This document shows positions 35,499 through 42,715 of a DNA stretch of 50,859 nt, one piece after another. Source of the stretch: Betaproteobacteria bacterium (GTDB lineage Bacteria > Pseudomonadota > Gammaproteobacteria > Burkholderiales > SG8-39); contig VBCM01000194.1 of assembly GCA_005883675.1 (NCBI GenBank), positions 1 through 50,859 on the forward strand. Reading direction: 5' to 3'. The notes beneath the pieces are model-generated. The model saw only the letters and a program-made list of their open reading frames with translations, did not search any database and was not told the origin of the DNA. Numbering within the stretch: the stretch's first letter is position 1; each line of letters begins with the position of its first letter. A program made the position numbers and the translations under genes.

Positions 35499-38012
35499 TC
35501 AGCTCAGCGCGGGAAGTGAAAAGAAAAAGCACGCACCGTCGCCCGGTTTGCCTTCCGCCCAAACACGTCCGTTATGGCGCGCGACGATGCGCTGCACGAT
35601 GGCGAGGCCCACACCCGTGCCTTCGAACTCGTCGGCGCGGTGCAGCCGCTGGAACACGCCGAACAGCTTGCCGGCGTAGCGCATGTCGAAGCCGGCACCG
35701 TTGTCGCGCACCCAATAGACGTTCTGCGTCGGCTCCCCGCGCGCGCCGATTTCAACGCGTGGGTCGGGCTTGTTGGCGCTGTACTTCAGCGCATTGCCGA
35801 TGAGATTGATCCACGCTTGCCTGAGCAATGCGCTATCGCCGTTGACCGGCGGCAGCGCCGAGCATTGCACCGCTCGTTCACCGCGCAGCTCGTCCGCTAC
35901 TTGCCGCGCAAGGCGCGTCATATCGACCGGCGCGCTCACCGCCTGTTGCCGGTTAAGCCGGGAGAAGGCAAGCAGGTCATCGATCAGCTGGCCCATGCGC
36001 TTCGCGTTCGCGCGCACCACGCCGAGCAGGCGGCGGGCGTCGTCATCGAGCCCCTCGGCGTGATCCTCCTCGAGCATGCGCGCGTACCCGTCGATTGCGC
36101 GCAGCGGGGCGCGCAAGTCGTGTGAAACCGAATAGCTGAAGCCCTCGAGCTCCTGGTTCGCTATCTGGAGCTCTGCGGTGCGCTGCTGCACGCGTCCCTC
36201 GAGTTCGGCAGCATGCCCTTTGACGCGCTCAACAAGGCGCGCCTGCATCATGGCGATTGCGAGCTGGGTCGCGACCTCTTGCGCGATATTGGTCTGCTCG
36301 GGCGTAAAGGCATTTTTCTCGCCACCGAAGCTCACGGCACCGAGCAGCTCACCCCCGGCGATCATCGGCACCGCTATGTAGGCATGCACGCCCGAGGCGA
36401 GCAGCGCCTGGCGTTCCGGCGTCGCCGGCAGCGTATCGGCATCGATGAACTGCGCTTCACCCCTGCGCAGAGCCTCCAGATCGCCCATCAGACGGATCGA
36501 GTAACGCACGCCCGGCCCGACATGCGTGCGTTGCCGACCGGCCGCTGCGATCCACTCCACTTCAGCGGCCTGGAGATCGAAGCGGTTGATGATGGCGCGC
36601 GGCACGCCGAGCAGCCGTCGCAGCGGCTGGATCACCGCCGCGGCAATCGCGCTCGGCGGCTGCTCGCTCACCATGGCGCGGTCGATTTCGCTGAGAATGC
36701 GAAGCCGTTCGGCATGCATGGCGAGCGCGCGCTTGCGCTCGCTCACGTCGAATACCGTCGAGCGGCTCATGAGATAGCGTCCCGCTGCATCGGTGATGCT
36801 TGTCGCATTGAGCGAACCGGTGAACGTCGAGCCGTCCTTGCGCCGGTACTCGAACTCCGCGTCGCGCAGCCAGCCTTGCTTTCGGAACAGCGGAAAGATC
36901 TCGCGCCAGAAGCGCTGGGCACTCGCGGGGGTCATCAGGTCGGCGTGGCGCATCTTTCCGACGACCTCGTCTCGCGAGTACCCGAGCCAGGAGAGCCAAG
37001 TGTCGTTGATGCGGATGATGAGGCCGTTCGCGTCGACCGAGTGGTAGCCGCACGGTGCTCGGTTGTAGAGGTCCTTAAGCTCGCGGCGCTGACGCAGCAG
37101 ATGCAGCGAAAGCAACGCCACGGCGGCGCAAAAACTCAGGATGATGGCGTAGCCCACGAGTAGCCGCTGCAGCTGGTTCTCGCGAGCGGCAAAGGCCTGC
37201 GTGCTCGGCTGCTCCATCAGCACGCCCCAACCGTGCCGGCTTGCCACGTAGGCGAACACGTACGGCTCGTCGGTCCCCGGGCGATCGGCCACGTCGACGC
37301 CTCGCAGGCCTTGCAGCAGCCGCGCGACCGCGGGATGCGCCGAAAGGTCGGGCGGCTCGGTCGCAGGCAGCGCCGTCGGATGGAAGGCGGCGGTGCCGCG
37401 AGCATCGATGACATGCAGCGAGCCGCCGGGCCCGACGTCGGTGGCGCGCGCCCAATCGAAGAACGAGTCGAGACCAATTTGCAACTGCAGGATGCCGCTC
37501 GGTGCTCCAGCGGCGCTGCCGATGGGCACAGCCACGGCGAACACATGCCGTCGCGGTGCCGCCGCCCGCAGATAGACGCTCGACACATAGGGGCGCCAAG
37601 TCCGGCTGACACCGGCGTACCACTCGCGATGAGCGAAGCTTTGTCCCTGGACCGCGCTCACCTCGGGGATGTCCGCCATGAGCTTGCCGCCCGCGTCATA
37701 GAGGACGATGCGGTCGACGAACGCAAATTGGCTCGGCACCTCGTTCAGGATGCGCACGGCAGCTCTCCATTGGCCGGCAGCCACGAGCTCGCGGAAGCGC
37801 ACGCGCGTCGCGAGTGAGGTGCCTAGATCCACCATGCGATCGAGTCTCTCGGAAAGCGTTGCCGCGGCGAGCTGCGTAAGCGCGAGCCGGCGCTCCATGA
37901 CTACCTCCGTGAGCTCCCGCTTCACGGAGTCGTAGATGTGCAGGGCGAGCGCGACGAAAAGCAAAACGAGAAGCGCCGCTCCTACATAAGCAACGCGCGG
38001 CGCGTTCGGCAT
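35499..38012 (-). CDS. Membrane sensor histidine kinase (Cache-PAS-GAF-HisKA-HATPase)
   Basis: N-terminal TM + periplasmic Cache-like region, PAS, GAF, FSYSVSHDLRAPLRAIDGYARML, HATPase DNGAGFDMRYAGKLFGVFQRLH; start taken as ATG 38012. Confidence 0.9.
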   Translation of the reverse strand: MPNAPRVAYVGAALLVLLFVALALHIYDSVKRELTEVVMERRLALTQLAAATLSERLDRMVDLGTSLATRVRFRELVAAGQWRAAVRILNEVPSQFAFVDRIVLYDAGGKLMADIPEVSAVQGQSFAHREWYAGVSRTWRPYVSSVYLRAAAPRRHVFAVAVPIGSAAGAPSGILQLQIGLDSFFDWARATDVGPGGSLHVIDARGTAAFHPTALPATEPPDLSAHPAVARLLQGLRGVDVADRPGTDEPYVFAYVASRHGWGVLMEQPSTQAFAARENQLQRLLVGYAIILSFCAAVALLSLHLLRQRRELKDLYNRAPCGYHSVDANGLIIRINDTWLSWLGYSRDEVVGKMRHADLMTPASAQRFWREIFPLFRKQGWLRDAEFEYRRKDGSTFTGSLNATSITDAAGRYLMSRSTVFDVSERKRALAMHAERLRILSEIDRAMVSEQPPSAIAAAVIQPLRRLLGVPRAIINRFDLQAAEVEWIAAAGRQRTHVGPGVRYSIRLMGDLEALRRGEAQFIDADTLPATPERQALLASGVHAYIAVPMIAGGELLGAVSFGGEKNAFTPEQTNIAQEVATQLAIAMMQARLVERVKGHAAELEGRVQQRTAELQIANQELEGFSYSVSHDLRAPLRAIDGYARMLEEDHAEGLDDDARRLLGVVRANAKRMGQLIDDLLAFSRLNRQQAVSAPVDMTRLARQVADELRGERAVQCSALPPVNGDSALLRQAWINLIGNALKYSANKPDPRVEIGARGEPTQNVYWVRDNGAGFDMRYAGKLFGVFQRLHRADEFEGTGVGLAIVQRIVARHNGRVWAEGKPGDGACFFFSLPALS

Positions 38013-38127: not shown

Positions 38128-38143
38128 TGTGCGTTTACGCACA
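38128..38143. promoter_or_regulatory. 16-bp perfect inverted repeat TGTGCG-TTTA-CGCACA (candidate Crp-type operator)
   Basis: Exact dyad in the intergenic region between the histidine kinase and the peptide operon; outer TGTG-N8-CACA matches Crp half-site spacing. Confidence 0.35.
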
Positions 38144-38343: not shown

Positions 38344-38369
38344 GACCAAAACTGCGAGGAGAACACGCT

Positions 38370-38549
38370 ATGTCGAAGAAGCAGAGCCAAATCGTGCGCA
38401 AGCCGTCGAAGAAAATCGCTGACGCGCGCCGCGTCCGCTACGGCGGCGGCTCCATGCCGCGTGTGCTGCGTTCGGCGGACAAGCTGACCCAAGACTCACG
38501 CACGATCCGCTTTGGTGGCGGCTCGATGCCCGCGAGCCTCAGAAAGTAA
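38370..38549 (+). CDS. 59-aa basic small protein with duplicated R(Y/F)GGGSMP motif, function unknown
   Basis: ATG at 38370 preceded by GAGGAG Shine-Dalgarno; MSKKQSQIVRKPSKKIADARRVRYGGGSMPRVLRSADKLTQDSRTIRFGGGSMPASLRK; repeats differ at synonymous sites. Confidence 0.82.
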   Translation: MSKKQSQIVRKPSKKIADARRVRYGGGSMPRVLRSADKLTQDSRTIRFGGGSMPASLRK

Positions 38550-38558
38550 GTTGCCGCG

Positions 38559-39320
38559 ATGACCGAAACACACCAGCCGAACCCCGTGGTCACTTTCTAC
38601 GGGGCAGTGCCGGGCATCCGTGCGCCGATACGCGCGGATGCGTCTGGACTGGGAACGCTGCCGTCGCGCGGCTTTCAATACTGCGAAGCGCTGAGGACGG
38701 CATCGTCCTTCGGCTGGTATGTGTTTCCGCCGATCGATTTCACGCTGCAGTGGGACGGCTCACAGATCATCTGGACGTATCGTGGTGCCAAAGGCTGGTA
38801 CCCGCTCACCAGTGCGCAGTTCCCCGGCTTTCAGGCGGTATTTGACCGTGCGGCGCCGAAGCGGCTGCGAGGATTCGCGCCGCCGTTCCTCAGCGCCATT
38901 CCCGAGCCGGGCATCATCCAGTTGTGGACCGGCTTGTTCGTCGCGAGCGCGGAGAACTGGAGCATCCTGATACGGCCGCCAGCGAACTTGCCCCGCAATC
39001 TGGCCTACGAGCCTTACGAAGGCATCGTGGAAAGCGACCGCTGGTTCGGGCCACTCTTCACCAATATCCGCCTCATCAAAACGGACGTGCCGATCGTCTT
39101 CAGCACCGAAATGCCGCTGCTGCAGGTGCAGCCGCTCCATCGCAGCACGTATGCGGAAGAGGTAACAAACCGCTTCGGCATGGTGCCGGCGCTCGCCGAT
39201 TTCCCTCCTCACGCGTGGGAACGCTATGAGACTAACATCGTAAAACCGCGCGAGATCGGCGCCTACGCCACCGAAGTGCGGCGACGTCGCCGCAGCGGCT
39301 GCCCGGTCCACGCCGGGTGA
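38559..39320 (+). CDS. DUF6065-like protein of unknown function
   Basis: GWYVFPPIDFTLQWDGS...GLFVASAENWSILIRPPANLPRNLAYEPYEGIVESDRW..NIRLIKTDVPIVFSTEMPLLQVQPL recalled as resembling the DUF6065 pattern; 9 nt after the peptide stop. Confidence 0.65.
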   Translation: MTETHQPNPVVTFYGAVPGIRAPIRADASGLGTLPSRGFQYCEALRTASSFGWYVFPPIDFTLQWDGSQIIWTYRGAKGWYPLTSAQFPGFQAVFDRAAPKRLRGFAPPFLSAIPEPGIIQLWTGLFVASAENWSILIRPPANLPRNLAYEPYEGIVESDRWFGPLFTNIRLIKTDVPIVFSTEMPLLQVQPLHRSTYAEEVTNRFGMVPALADFPPHAWERYETNIVKPREIGAYATEVRRRRRSGCPVHAG

Positions 39321-40249
39321 ACGGCTACTTCGCCGCGGCGCTCGCCGTGCTCATCTGGGCGGCGTACCCGGTCGCCACGCGTGCTGGAGTCACCGGGTCG
39401 TTCACCGCGCAGGAGCTGGTGACGCTGCGCTTCGGCATCGGCGCGCTGCTCTTCCTACCCTACCTGCTGGTGCATTTTCGCGCCATCACTCGCGAGGCCT
39501 GGCTGCGCGGCGTGCCGCTCACGCTCTTTCAGGGCGCCGGCATGGGGGCGCTGGTGATCTTTGGCCTGCAATTCGCTCCCGCGAATCACCAGGCAGCGCT
39601 CGGTCCCGGCGTCTGTTCGACCTGGGTCGCGTTGCTCGCGTTTCTGGTGTTTGCCCGCCGGCCATCGCCGCGCATCATGATCGGCGCGACCTTGTGCGCG
39701 ATCGGCGTATTCGCACTCACCTCATGGGGCGCGGGCAAGCACAACCAGGCGGTGCTTGGCGGCGATGCCATGTTCCTCGCCGCTTCAGCCCTTGGCGCGC
39801 TCTACGTGCTGCAGCTTCGCAGCTGGGGCGTCAGCGCGATGCAGGCGGCGGCCATTGTGACAGTGTATTCGGGCGTGATCGTGGTGCCTTGGCATCTATG
39901 GTCCGCGTCCGAGCCGCTGTGGCGCGTTGCGCCGGTCGAGCTTCTCTGGCAAACGCTGTGGCAGGGCGTGCTGATCGGCTGCGTTGCGCTCATTGCATTC
40001 AACCAAGCCATCACCCGCTTGGGCCCCGAGCGCTCGAGCGCGATGATCGCGCTCGTACCGGTGCTGAGCGCCGTCCTAGGGTTTATCTTCCTGCGCGAAG
40101 TTCCCTCGACCGGCGAAGTCGCCGCCATCCTCGCCATCTCCGCCGGCGTATCGGTCAGCGCGTCGCTACCGCGGCAGCCCGGCCTCGACCAGAGCTGCGA
40201 TGAAGCGTCGGGCCTGCGGGGTGTCGCGGCCCGGATAGCGCGCTTCTAA
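39317..40249 (+). CDS. EamA/DMT-superfamily transporter, GTG start
   Basis: Ten hydrophobic segments, two EamA repeats (…AALAVLIWAAYPVATRAG…; …LIALVPVLSAVLGFIFLREVPSTGEVAAILAISAGV); GTG 39317 overlaps the upstream TGA. Confidence 0.9.
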   Translation: MNGYFAAALAVLIWAAYPVATRAGVTGSFTAQELVTLRFGIGALLFLPYLLVHFRAITREAWLRGVPLTLFQGAGMGALVIFGLQFAPANHQAALGPGVCSTWVALLAFLVFARRPSPRIMIGATLCAIGVFALTSWGAGKHNQAVLGGDAMFLAASALGALYVLQLRSWGVSAMQAAAIVTVYSGVIVVPWHLWSASEPLWRVAPVELLWQTLWQGVLIGCVALIAFNQAITRLGPERSSAMIALVPVLSAVLGFIFLREVPSTGEVAAILAISAGVSVSASLPRQPGLDQSCDEASGLRGVAARIARF

Positions 40250-42715
40250 TACGCTGGCGGTGAGACCGGGCTCGAGCTGACGCAGCTCGGCCATGGCCTT
40301 CCGGGCTTCCTCCAGCCGCCCGGTGAGTACGAACGCTGCGACGAGCGTACGCAAGCTCGGCGTATGCAATCGATTCTCCCGCAAGGAGCGCATCGACAGC
40401 TCGATGGCCCGGTCGTACTGCTCGGCGACCAGATGCGCCATGCCCGCGAGCGAATCGAAGTAATACATCATCGGATCGAGCGGCGAGAGGGAAAGCGCCT
40501 GGTCGGCGCACTGCACTGCTTCGGCGCCGCGCCCGCGCCAGGCGTGGGTGATCGCGCGGTGTAGCCAAGCCAGGGGCTCATTCGGATTCGCGGCGATCGC
40601 CTGAGCTAGGCGCTGTTCGGCGGCGTCAAGGTCGTGGAGCGACCAGGCGGTGACAAACCCGTCGACCGCAAGGGCAAGCGCGTCCTCGGGGTCGCAGGCT
40701 AGCGCGCGTGCTGCGCAAGCGGTGGCGTCGGCGAAGTCCTGCGCCGGGGCTTCGCTCATGCCGGCGAGAACCCGCAAGATGTGCCATTTCGCAAGCCAGG
40801 CATGCGGCGCAGGCGACACCGGGTTTCGCGCGATCGCCGTCTCGAAGGCTTGGCGTGCGGCGAAGAAGTCGTCGCGAGACTGGCGATGCATCAGTTCGAC
40901 GCCGCGAAGTGTCATGCCGTAGGCGTCGAGCTCATCGAAGCTGGTGATGCGGGCGCGGCGCAGCTCGATTGAGCGCACTACGGGGGTGACGCTCTGCACC
41001 ACCTTGCGCGCGAGCTCGCCCTGCATGGCGAACATGTCCGCAAGATCGCCCTCGAATCGCTCGCTCCATACGATCCTGCCGTCACGCGTATCGGCAAGCT
41101 CCGCCATGAGGAGGGCCTGCGCCTCGGCGGTCTGGACGCTGCCCGAGAGCACGTACTGCACGCCGAGCATCTCGCCGATCGTGCGCACGCCGAGCGGCGC
41201 CCGCCGGAAAGCCATCGTCGAGAGGCGAGAACTGACGAAGAAATCCGGCACCCGCGACAGCACGGCGATGGTCTCATCGGCGAGCCCGTCGCCGATGAAG
41301 GCAAGCCGCATGTCGTCGCTGCGTACCTGGAACGGAATCACGGCAAGCGATGGGCGGCCGTGCGCGCGCACGGCGGCGCTCGGCGTGGCCGCGTCGGCGT
41401 GCGCGGCGGGCCAAAGCCGGAACGCGCGCTCGGTGCGGCTGCGGTTGCGCAGACGCTGCTCGCCCAGGTCCTCGACAGAGGCGTCCACCCCGCTCGTGAG
41501 CTGGTCGCGAACCGCGGCCGAGACGATGGTCTCGCCGGCATTGGCGAGCTCCGCCAGGCGCGCGGCAACGTTGACGCCGTCCCCCAGCACGTTGAACGTC
41601 TCGACGATCACATCGGCGACGTGAATGCCGATGCGCAGCCCGAGCGGCTGTGCGTTGCTTGACGCGTTGGAGCGCGCCAGCTCCTGATGCAGTTCTAAGG
41701 CGCAGCGCACCGCCAGCGAGGCTTCGGTGAATTCAGCGAGGAAGCCGTCGCTGAGAGTGCGCGACAGGCTGCGGCCGGCGTGCGTCGGAATGATCTCAGC
41801 GGTGGCGTGGGCGAAAAAAGTGCGCCAGCGCTTGAGCGTGCGCTCCTCATCGCGCTCCATGAGACCCGCGGCATCGATGGCATCGGCGACCAGCACCGCG
41901 CGCCGCAGCCGCTGCGGGCCCCAGGTGGCGATATGGCGCAGCTCCTCTTCCGGCGCCGGCGCGCCAGACGCCTGCTCGGCCCGGGCCTCGCCGGCGAGCC
42001 GCTCGAGCGCACTCAAGTCGCGCAGGACGAGCGCGCGCCCCTGCCGCTCGACGAGGCCCTGGCGCGCCAGCCGCGAAAGCTCGCGCGTCACTTCGGAGCG
42101 CCCGGTGCCGACGCGGTCTGCAATTTCCCGATGGCTTGGCGCGCGTTCGATGCGCGCCGCGTTGTCGGCCGTGCCCGCGGCGCGCGCCATGCGTAAGAGC
42201 TCGCCCAGCACGCGGTCCTGCACGCGTCGCGCGCCGAGCTCGAGCAGCCGGGCGGCGAGCTCGCGCACCGACCCGGTGAGCCGCCGCAGCAGGCGCTCGC
42301 GCACCGTGGGATGGTTGGCGAGGATGGCGCGGAATGCTTCCGGCGGCATCGAGGCGAGCAGCGATTCGCGCACTGCCAGCACGTCAGCGAAGTGGCTGCG
42401 CCCGTCGATCGCCGAATGCTCCCCGAACACGTCGCCCGCCGGCACGTCGCGCAGGATCAAGGTGCGCCCGCGGGCGGCCGGCGCGGCGAGGCGCACCACG
42501 CCCGAGATTACGAAGTAAACGTCGCGATCGGTGCCCTCGCGCCGGATGATGACGGCATTGCGCTTGCAACGCGTCCAGGTGCACTGCTGCGCGATCTCGC
42601 GCAGGCTCGCCGTGTCGAGGCCCTTGAAGAGCTCGACCTTCTGCAGGCCGAGCAGGGCGGAAACGCGCGCCGCGGGCTTGTCGCCTGCCTTGCGCCGCGC
42701 TCGCGCCGTCACCAT
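40166..42715 (-). CDS. Crp-type cNMP-binding/HTH - class III nucleotide cyclase - TPR fusion protein
   Basis: N-terminal Crp sensor (GDVFGEHSAIDGRSHFADVLA), HTH (SHREIADRVGTGRSEVTRELSRLARQGLVE), cyclase homology (VLVADAIDAAGLMERDE, LSDGFLAEF, LGDGVNVAARLAELA), TolB-like/TPR C-terminus. Confidence 0.88.
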   Translation of the reverse strand: MVTARARRKAGDKPAARVSALLGLQKVELFKGLDTASLREIAQQCTWTRCKRNAVIIRREGTDRDVYFVISGVVRLAAPAARGRTLILRDVPAGDVFGEHSAIDGRSHFADVLAVRESLLASMPPEAFRAILANHPTVRERLLRRLTGSVRELAARLLELGARRVQDRVLGELLRMARAAGTADNAARIERAPSHREIADRVGTGRSEVTRELSRLARQGLVERQGRALVLRDLSALERLAGEARAEQASGAPAPEEELRHIATWGPQRLRRAVLVADAIDAAGLMERDEERTLKRWRTFFAHATAEIIPTHAGRSLSRTLSDGFLAEFTEASLAVRCALELHQELARSNASSNAQPLGLRIGIHVADVIVETFNVLGDGVNVAARLAELANAGETIVSAAVRDQLTSGVDASVEDLGEQRLRNRSRTERAFRLWPAAHADAATPSAAVRAHGRPSLAVIPFQVRSDDMRLAFIGDGLADETIAVLSRVPDFFVSSRLSTMAFRRAPLGVRTIGEMLGVQYVLSGSVQTAEAQALLMAELADTRDGRIVWSERFEGDLADMFAMQGELARKVVQSVTPVVRSIELRRARITSFDELDAYGMTLRGVELMHRQSRDDFFAARQAFETAIARNPVSPAPHAWLAKWHILRVLAGMSEAPAQDFADATACAARALACDPEDALALAVDGFVTAWSLHDLDAAEQRLAQAIAANPNEPLAWLHRAITHAWRGRGAEAVQCADQALSLSPLDPMMYYFDSLAGMAHLVAEQYDRAIELSMRSLRENRLHTPSLRTLVAAFVLTGRLEEARKAMAELRQLEPGLTASVLEARYPGRDTPQARRFIAALVEAGLPR

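Follow-up and report, generated by a model that had tools for sequence, protein, structure and literature searches.

A tandem-repeat peptide linked to a predicted dUTPase-fold DUF6065 protein and a TPR regulator in Proteobacteria: a candidate RiPP-like or peptide-signal module

The locus lies in a 50,859-nt stretch of betaproteobacterial DNA, called the window here. A short peptide gene is followed on the plus strand by a DUF6065 gene and a transporter gene, with a large regulator gene on the opposite strand. The features are as follows:

38128-38143, no strand: perfect palindrome TGTGCGTTTACGCACA, a candidate Crp-type operator, intergenic and upstream of the peptide gene.
38356-38361, plus strand: Shine-Dalgarno sequence GAGGAG, read from the sequence, 8 nt before the ATG.
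38370-38549, plus strand: tandem-repeat, precursor-like peptide of 59 aa with two units (homologues adjoin the same DUF6065 subfamily; purifying selection).
38421-38459, plus strand: repeat unit 1, DARRVRYGGGSMP (unit comparison).
38493-38531, plus strand: repeat unit 2, DSRTIRFGGGSMP (unit comparison).
38559-39320, plus strand: window-type DUF6065 protein of 253 aa with a predicted dUTPase fold (Pfam PF19541, AlphaFold2, structure matches).
39317-40249, plus strand: EamA (DMT-type) transporter (Pfam PF00892, E = 1.2e-23).
40166-42715, minus strand: regulator with cNMP-binding, Crp HTH, class III cyclase, TolB_N-like and TPR regions (Pfam), convergent with the operon.

A preliminary description of this DNA had proposed that the peptide, the DUF6065 protein and the EamA exporter form one functional unit. 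Its reading of the layout was reproduced. The peptide ORF and its Shine-Dalgarno sequence lie where they had been placed, the DUF6065-like gene starts 9 nt further on and matches PF19541 above the cut-off, and the GTG start of the EamA gene shares 4 nt with the DUF6065 stop (TGA). The long intergenic gap of about 357 nt was likewise recovered, its size following from the start of the histidine kinase gene, most likely at 38012. The kinase itself (35499-38012) was considered as a partner and rejected, with a strong neighbouring homologue at L042 only. At the other end of the operon the 3′ ends of the EamA (plus) and regulator (minus) genes overlap convergently by 84 nt (40166-40249). A search for RNA families, sigma-70-type promoters and terminators near the operon gave nothing convincing. 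As had been claimed, the window operon encodes no RiPP-modifying enzyme recognisable by Pfam and NCBIfam.

The window peptide belongs to no family in Pfam or NCBIfam. There are 11 differences in 39 nt between its two units (dS about 1.0, dN 0.2), so the duplication is not recent. The same core is found in both units of each of the nearest relatives, GAGSAP at L042 and GNGMAP at L041, as GGGSMP is in the window. That both units have been altered together shows that selection holds the two alike, and the doubled GGGSMP motif noted earlier is beyond chance, since the cores change in concert across species. Homologues next to the same DUF6065 subfamily were found at about 80 further loci, which bears out the expectation that the motif is conserved in relatives. 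These peptides are short and precursor-like, and their units, in tandem, number from 1 to at least 17; because contig ends interrupt many arrays, the counts are lower bounds. At many loci a single unit lies within a peptide of 30-60 aa. The unit is conserved and basic, with the pattern D-x-G-[KR]-[VI]-R-[LIFY]-G-x-x-x-[PR] (consensus from about 90 loci, D-[A]-[G]-[KR]-[VI]-R-[L]-G-[AG]-x-x-[RP]). Its core falls into two types, A (GGxAPxL and similar) and B (GAGxRxx). In the roughly 90 loci read, arrays lie upstream of DUF6065, usually at a distance of 90-300 nt. The end of an array often coincides with the end of a core (e.g. ...VRLGGVAPAL-stop), the pattern expected of repeated cores with spacers. 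Inspection of the precursors by eye revealed no Sec-type or other secretion signal and no long leader.

Two plasmid-borne Rhizobium loci were recovered by tblastn. In these an 83-aa hypothetical protein with units like DDGKVHIANKSPAF precedes a DUF6065 gene whose product is 42% identical to that of the window, and in one of the two an overlapping MFS gene comes next. The plasmid search for peptide relatives returned nothing beyond these loci. Eight DUF6065 loci came from scanning genome contigs, and all but one of them, in a Binatia MAG, have a repeat peptide directly upstream; the loci with the peptide are from Betaproteobacteria, Roseomonas (2-5 or more units, GKVRLGGYAPSLPPVRVSAEA), Nereida (5 units) and Rhizobium terrae. 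In the Binatia MAG (L048, 5081-7582) the window-type DUF6065 gene sits between genes for an Asp/Asn beta-hydroxylase and a sulfotransferase, and no repeat peptide was found. A second DUF6065 copy in a Roseomonas MAG (L058, 3368-3913; G451) encodes a distant window-type protein and is preceded by a different repeat peptide, with a 27-aa period (TRQFGDGGxxPSLKAHLAKASAKTAKQ). Judging by this locus, repeat peptides with other motifs may follow the same principle.

Selection on the peptide was apparent at the level of single units. Compared codon by codon within 28 arrays, units gave pS 0.286 and pN 0.046 (ratio 0.16), and one 17-unit array had pS 0.23 and pN 0. Across the whole ORF, the comparison of the window with L042 (dN 0.17, dS 0.76) also reveals purifying selection. 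The low pN/pS among units makes translation of the arrays very likely and indicates that each unit matters for its amino-acid sequence.

The linkage of peptide and DUF6065 gene was assessed with a position matrix, which found the motif within 600 nt upstream of window-type DUF6065 at 80 of 91 loci. The matrix found no motif in control regions (0/91 on the reverse strand, 0/94 downstream, 0/64 further upstream) or upstream of ordinary, main-family PF19541 DUF6065 genes (0/25). It was trained on the same loci that it scores, so independent tests weigh more. A profile search placed window-type DUF6065 in 84 of 250 genomes of Acetobacteraceae, the family of Roseomonas, about a third. A blind search of the same 250 genomes with the peptide profile matched 78, and 74 of these also carry the DUF6065 gene (Fisher p = 6e-47). 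Window-type DUF6065 occurs in 4 of 336 further sampled Alphaproteobacteria. At each of these loci, which came to light after the pattern had been defined, a repeat peptide lies immediately upstream (4/4). The blind peptide search of 308 Alphaproteobacteria matched four genomes, all of them DUF6065 carriers with the peptide beside the gene each time. In both searches, then, peptide homologues accompany the DUF6065 gene, and the outcome named beforehand as refuting the unit, homologues that mostly lack the gene, did not occur. That these genes are chance neighbours, or that the array has no role at the protein level, is as good as refuted by the purifying selection on each unit, the co-occurrence in the 250 genomes and the lack of the motif from every control region. 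Peptide and DUF6065 gene together present what is sought in RiPP-like systems, a conserved precursor-like ORF that co-occurs with a partner gene.

Of the DUF6065 genes that lack an adjacent peptide, seven belong to genomes that hold a peptide match elsewhere. Many such detached arrays stop at a contig edge, so real relocation is clear for some only (e.g. L204 and L205). Arrays away from DUF6065 in genomes that carry it were seen at L200, L201, L204, L205 and L105 (9206-9263), and possibly act in trans. Within the sampled genomes, all from one database, the module occurs in about a third of Acetobacteraceae and sporadically elsewhere in Proteobacteria. No further case was found in 300 genomes of the window's own order; the window lineage may therefore have acquired the locus. 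A phage origin was considered and rejected, with no match in phage records or viral contigs.

One member of the peptide family matches pantocin A weakly (E = 0.03). In Pfam, two of nine aligned peptides match CsrA weakly (best E = 1.4e-6), which could suggest a CsrA-like or other nucleic-acid-binding repeat protein. However, these matches arise because KVRIGGNAP resembles the VRIGxNAP of CsrA; the resemblance spans some 10 residues of one repeat (VRIG..AP), the matches stem from repeated copies and none is full-length. Moreover, the window peptide and type B cores (GAGMRRG) are unmatched, and such a protein would leave the DUF6065 linkage unexplained. We consider this explanation highly improbable, and the option of a basic RNA- or DNA-binding small protein, raised in the preliminary description, was judged unlikely.

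The DUF6065 protein of the window matches PF19541 partially, over profile positions 85-165 (35.9 bits against a cut-off of 26.6, E = 7.5e-9); its relatives match with E = 2e-15 to 2e-17. An AlphaFold2 model built from a nine-sequence alignment (pLDDT 75.2, pTM 0.68) is least certain in the loop 28-49, which contains C42 and has pLDDT under 50. Among the best 50 PDB matches listed by Foldseek all are dUTPases (probability 1.00, best E = 4.5e-4), with TM-scores by target of up to 0.76, and a viral structure library returned dUTPases and uncharacterised phage proteins. A dUTPase fold is thus predicted for the protein. Motif III of dUTPases (GVIDxDYxG) is recognisable only in part, in the stretch GIVE[ST]D.WFG (for example GIVESDRWFG), with Glu in the place of the catalytic Asp. 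The glycine-rich C-terminal motif V is absent from the inspected alignment. Given the Glu and the missing motif V, the protein is not called a dUTPase. As an enzyme of that kind it was rejected, since the set of five motifs is incomplete and there is no sequence match: no dUTPase profile matched at E 1, and neither Pfam nor the PDB yielded a dUTPase by sequence. Residues common to the window-type and main-family proteins include C42, G52, W65, N143, G155, E158, D160, N169 and W220; among them C42, E158 and D160 are only candidates for functional residues, and no conserved set of metal ligands was found. The phage family phrog_7084, of unknown function, is related to DUF6065 (E = 7.5e-4) within a wider superfamily (L036, 1279-2055).

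The exporter proved less constant than the other two members of the proposed unit. EamA homologues occur at three betaproteobacterial loci and at L043 and L132, an MFS gene replaces EamA in Rhizobium, Nereida and one weak case, and most Acetobacteraceae loci have neither within 6 kb. In the betaproteobacterial and Rhizobium loci the exporter gene overlaps DUF6065. With EamA or MFS at few loci only, an exporter was dropped as a core component; EamA is not general, so the peptide-DUF6065-EamA unit is one lineage's version. The earlier proposal of one functional unit therefore stands for peptide and DUF6065 and falls for the exporter, which is confined to some lineages.

One rival reading leaves the peptide unprocessed. 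The dUTPase fold is typically homotrimeric, and each unit could instead be a linear motif that binds a DUF6065 trimer, with the intact array scaffolding or titrating DUF6065 and tuning its activity or the TPR regulator. Identical tandem motifs with flexible spacers would suit such a motif array, as would a conserved, basic unit, and the sameness of units within an array could serve multivalent binding without processing; the exporter is, moreover, missing from most loci. However, the single-unit peptides of 30-60 aa at many loci offer no multivalency, and several lineages do have exporters in the operon. The C-terminal half of the unit varies between clades yet is uniform within an array, as would be expected of a product. 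We regard this explanation as somewhat unlikely.

Within 6 kb of 90 loci the recurrent neighbours are DUF6065 and a regulator. No known peptide-modifying enzyme, RiPP enzyme family or dedicated protease recurs there, with neighbour genes grouped by BLAST and annotated by Pfam for part of them. The commonest neighbour at related loci is a BTAD-TolB_N-TPR regulator with a SARP-like BTAD domain, and residues 436-849 of the window regulator align with it (27% identity, E = 2e-28). In all, 44 loci match the window regulator. The gene had been described beforehand as a nearby Crp-cyclase fusion. Its TolB_N/TPR half recurs at those loci; the regulator adjoining EamA is a third conserved partner, which that account had overlooked. 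It is present at 32 of the 54 loci with at least 3 kb of flank on both sides. The window's own genome has exactly one homologue, that of the window, and G450 also has one; in G555 the closest homologues are at its three DUF6065 loci. Other genomes contain extra, more distant homologues, about 20 in G585. Orientation differs by core type, with regulators divergent and upstream at type B loci (24) and mostly convergent and downstream at type A loci (13), like the window. The window regulator is an unusual 849-aa fusion of a cyclic-nucleotide-binding domain, a Crp HTH, a class III cyclase, a TolB_N-like region and TPRs (40166-42715, minus strand), and one chain might both make and sense a cyclic nucleotide.

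A palindrome lies upstream of the operon in all three betaproteobacterial loci. The copy at L042 is identical to TGTGCGTTTACGCACA, and L041 has GTGCGTTAACGCAC. The window holds TGTGCGTTTACGCACA only once, and its own genome contains two perfect copies, the second at G000:C59:36782-36797 (L229), near a methyltransferase-like gene. We infer that the palindrome at 38128-38143 would be bound by the Crp-HTH of the window regulator.

The peptide core type tracks the partner proteins and not the species. Two changes between types A and B suffice on the tree of DUF6065, and two on that of the regulator, although at least 12 genomes hold one type A and one type B locus. So few transitions point to co-inheritance of peptide, DUF6065 and regulator as a module, which is not by itself proof of binding specificity. 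Units are uniform within species, and the C-terminal half of the unit differs by clade.

Such a pattern could also fit a pheromone circuit, organised like RRNPP systems or the multi-copy yeast alpha-factor, in which released units are the signal, DUF6065 aids their maturation and the TPR half is the receptor. The regulator adjoins the peptide gene (divergently in type B, convergently in type A) and its tree tracks core type; units are alike within species and different between clades; and the palindrome upstream of the operon would suit a Crp-HTH regulator. However, several loci have no regulator within 3 kb, and TolB_N/TPR domains are common in regulators with other inputs, as the many distant homologues in G585 illustrate. 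We regard a circuit of this kind as unlikely.

Taken together, the module is best read as a new RiPP-like class or a peptide signal. Specifically, a multi-unit precursor peptide would be matured or handled by a dedicated dUTPase-fold protein under the control of a TPR regulator, a reading to which we give about an even chance of being right. The small gene would encode a leaderless or very-short-leader precursor with 1 to 17 or more near-identical units. DUF6065 would be a partner dedicated to this precursor, most likely one that matures the units by modification or release; alternatively, it may bind and protect them during processing. The TolB_N/TPR regulator would control the locus and may sense the product, which would leave the cell; some lineages add an operon exporter (EamA or MFS). 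The boldest form of this reading is peptide communication in Gram-negatives, with a propeptide of up to 17 identical copies, maturation by what would be the first dUTPase-fold enzyme known to modify a peptide, an intracellular TPR receptor and an exchangeable BTAD or Crp-cyclase DNA-binding half; we consider it very doubtful.

No curated family matches the peptide or the module. No description of 'DUF6065', 'KVRLGG' or this module was found in a literature search without preprints and most subscription papers, and a prior description is possible. The three-part module of repeat peptide, dUTPase-fold protein and TPR regulator is apparently an undescribed peptide-based system. Modification of the peptide by DUF6065 would mean that an old nucleotide-enzyme fold had been recruited to peptide maturation in a new RiPP class. 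If the regulator senses the product, Gram-negatives would have an RRNPP-like peptide signal. Either way DUF6065, so far functionless in annotation, gains a substrate that can be tested directly and that varies in nature in its number of units and its core sequence.

Several known systems invite comparison. Within PF19541 the main family is homologous to window-type DUF6065, but its genes lack an upstream repeat peptide. The dUTPase superfamily (dUTPase, dCTP deaminase) shares the predicted fold and the motif III-like stretch with DUF6065, which differs in its Glu for Asp and its lack of motif V. The multi-core RiPPs, such as microviridin with the precursor AMdnA and its partner ATP-grasp ligase AMdnC, likewise combine a short ribosomal precursor, several cores per chain and a dedicated partner gene alongside (PMC5934393). 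However, none of the known RiPP enzymes (ATP-grasp, radical SAM, YcaO, LanM or others) was recognised at our loci, the partner is predicted to fold as a dUTPase, the leader is only about 11-20 aa and one chain can carry as many as 17 near-identical units. Yeast alpha-factor and the fungal repeat proteins processed by Kex2, among them the ustiloxin-type RiPPs (PMC7329392), resemble the peptide in their tandem near-identical units, spacers and species-specific core, whereas the present system is bacterial and has no secretion signal, recurring Kex2-type dibasic site or UstY-like enzyme. RRNPP quorum sensing, which has been described for Firmicutes, Gram-positive bacteria, and for mobile elements of theirs, shares a small peptide gene next to a regulator with a TPR half (PMC10075063). 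Unlike RRNPP, the present module is found in Proteobacteria; its regulators have a DNA-binding half of BTAD or Crp type and a TolB_N region, its peptides have tandem units, and a DUF6065 gene comes in addition. Multi-core RiPPs, fungal repeat-derived peptides and RRNPP systems are analogues of this module rather than families that contain it.
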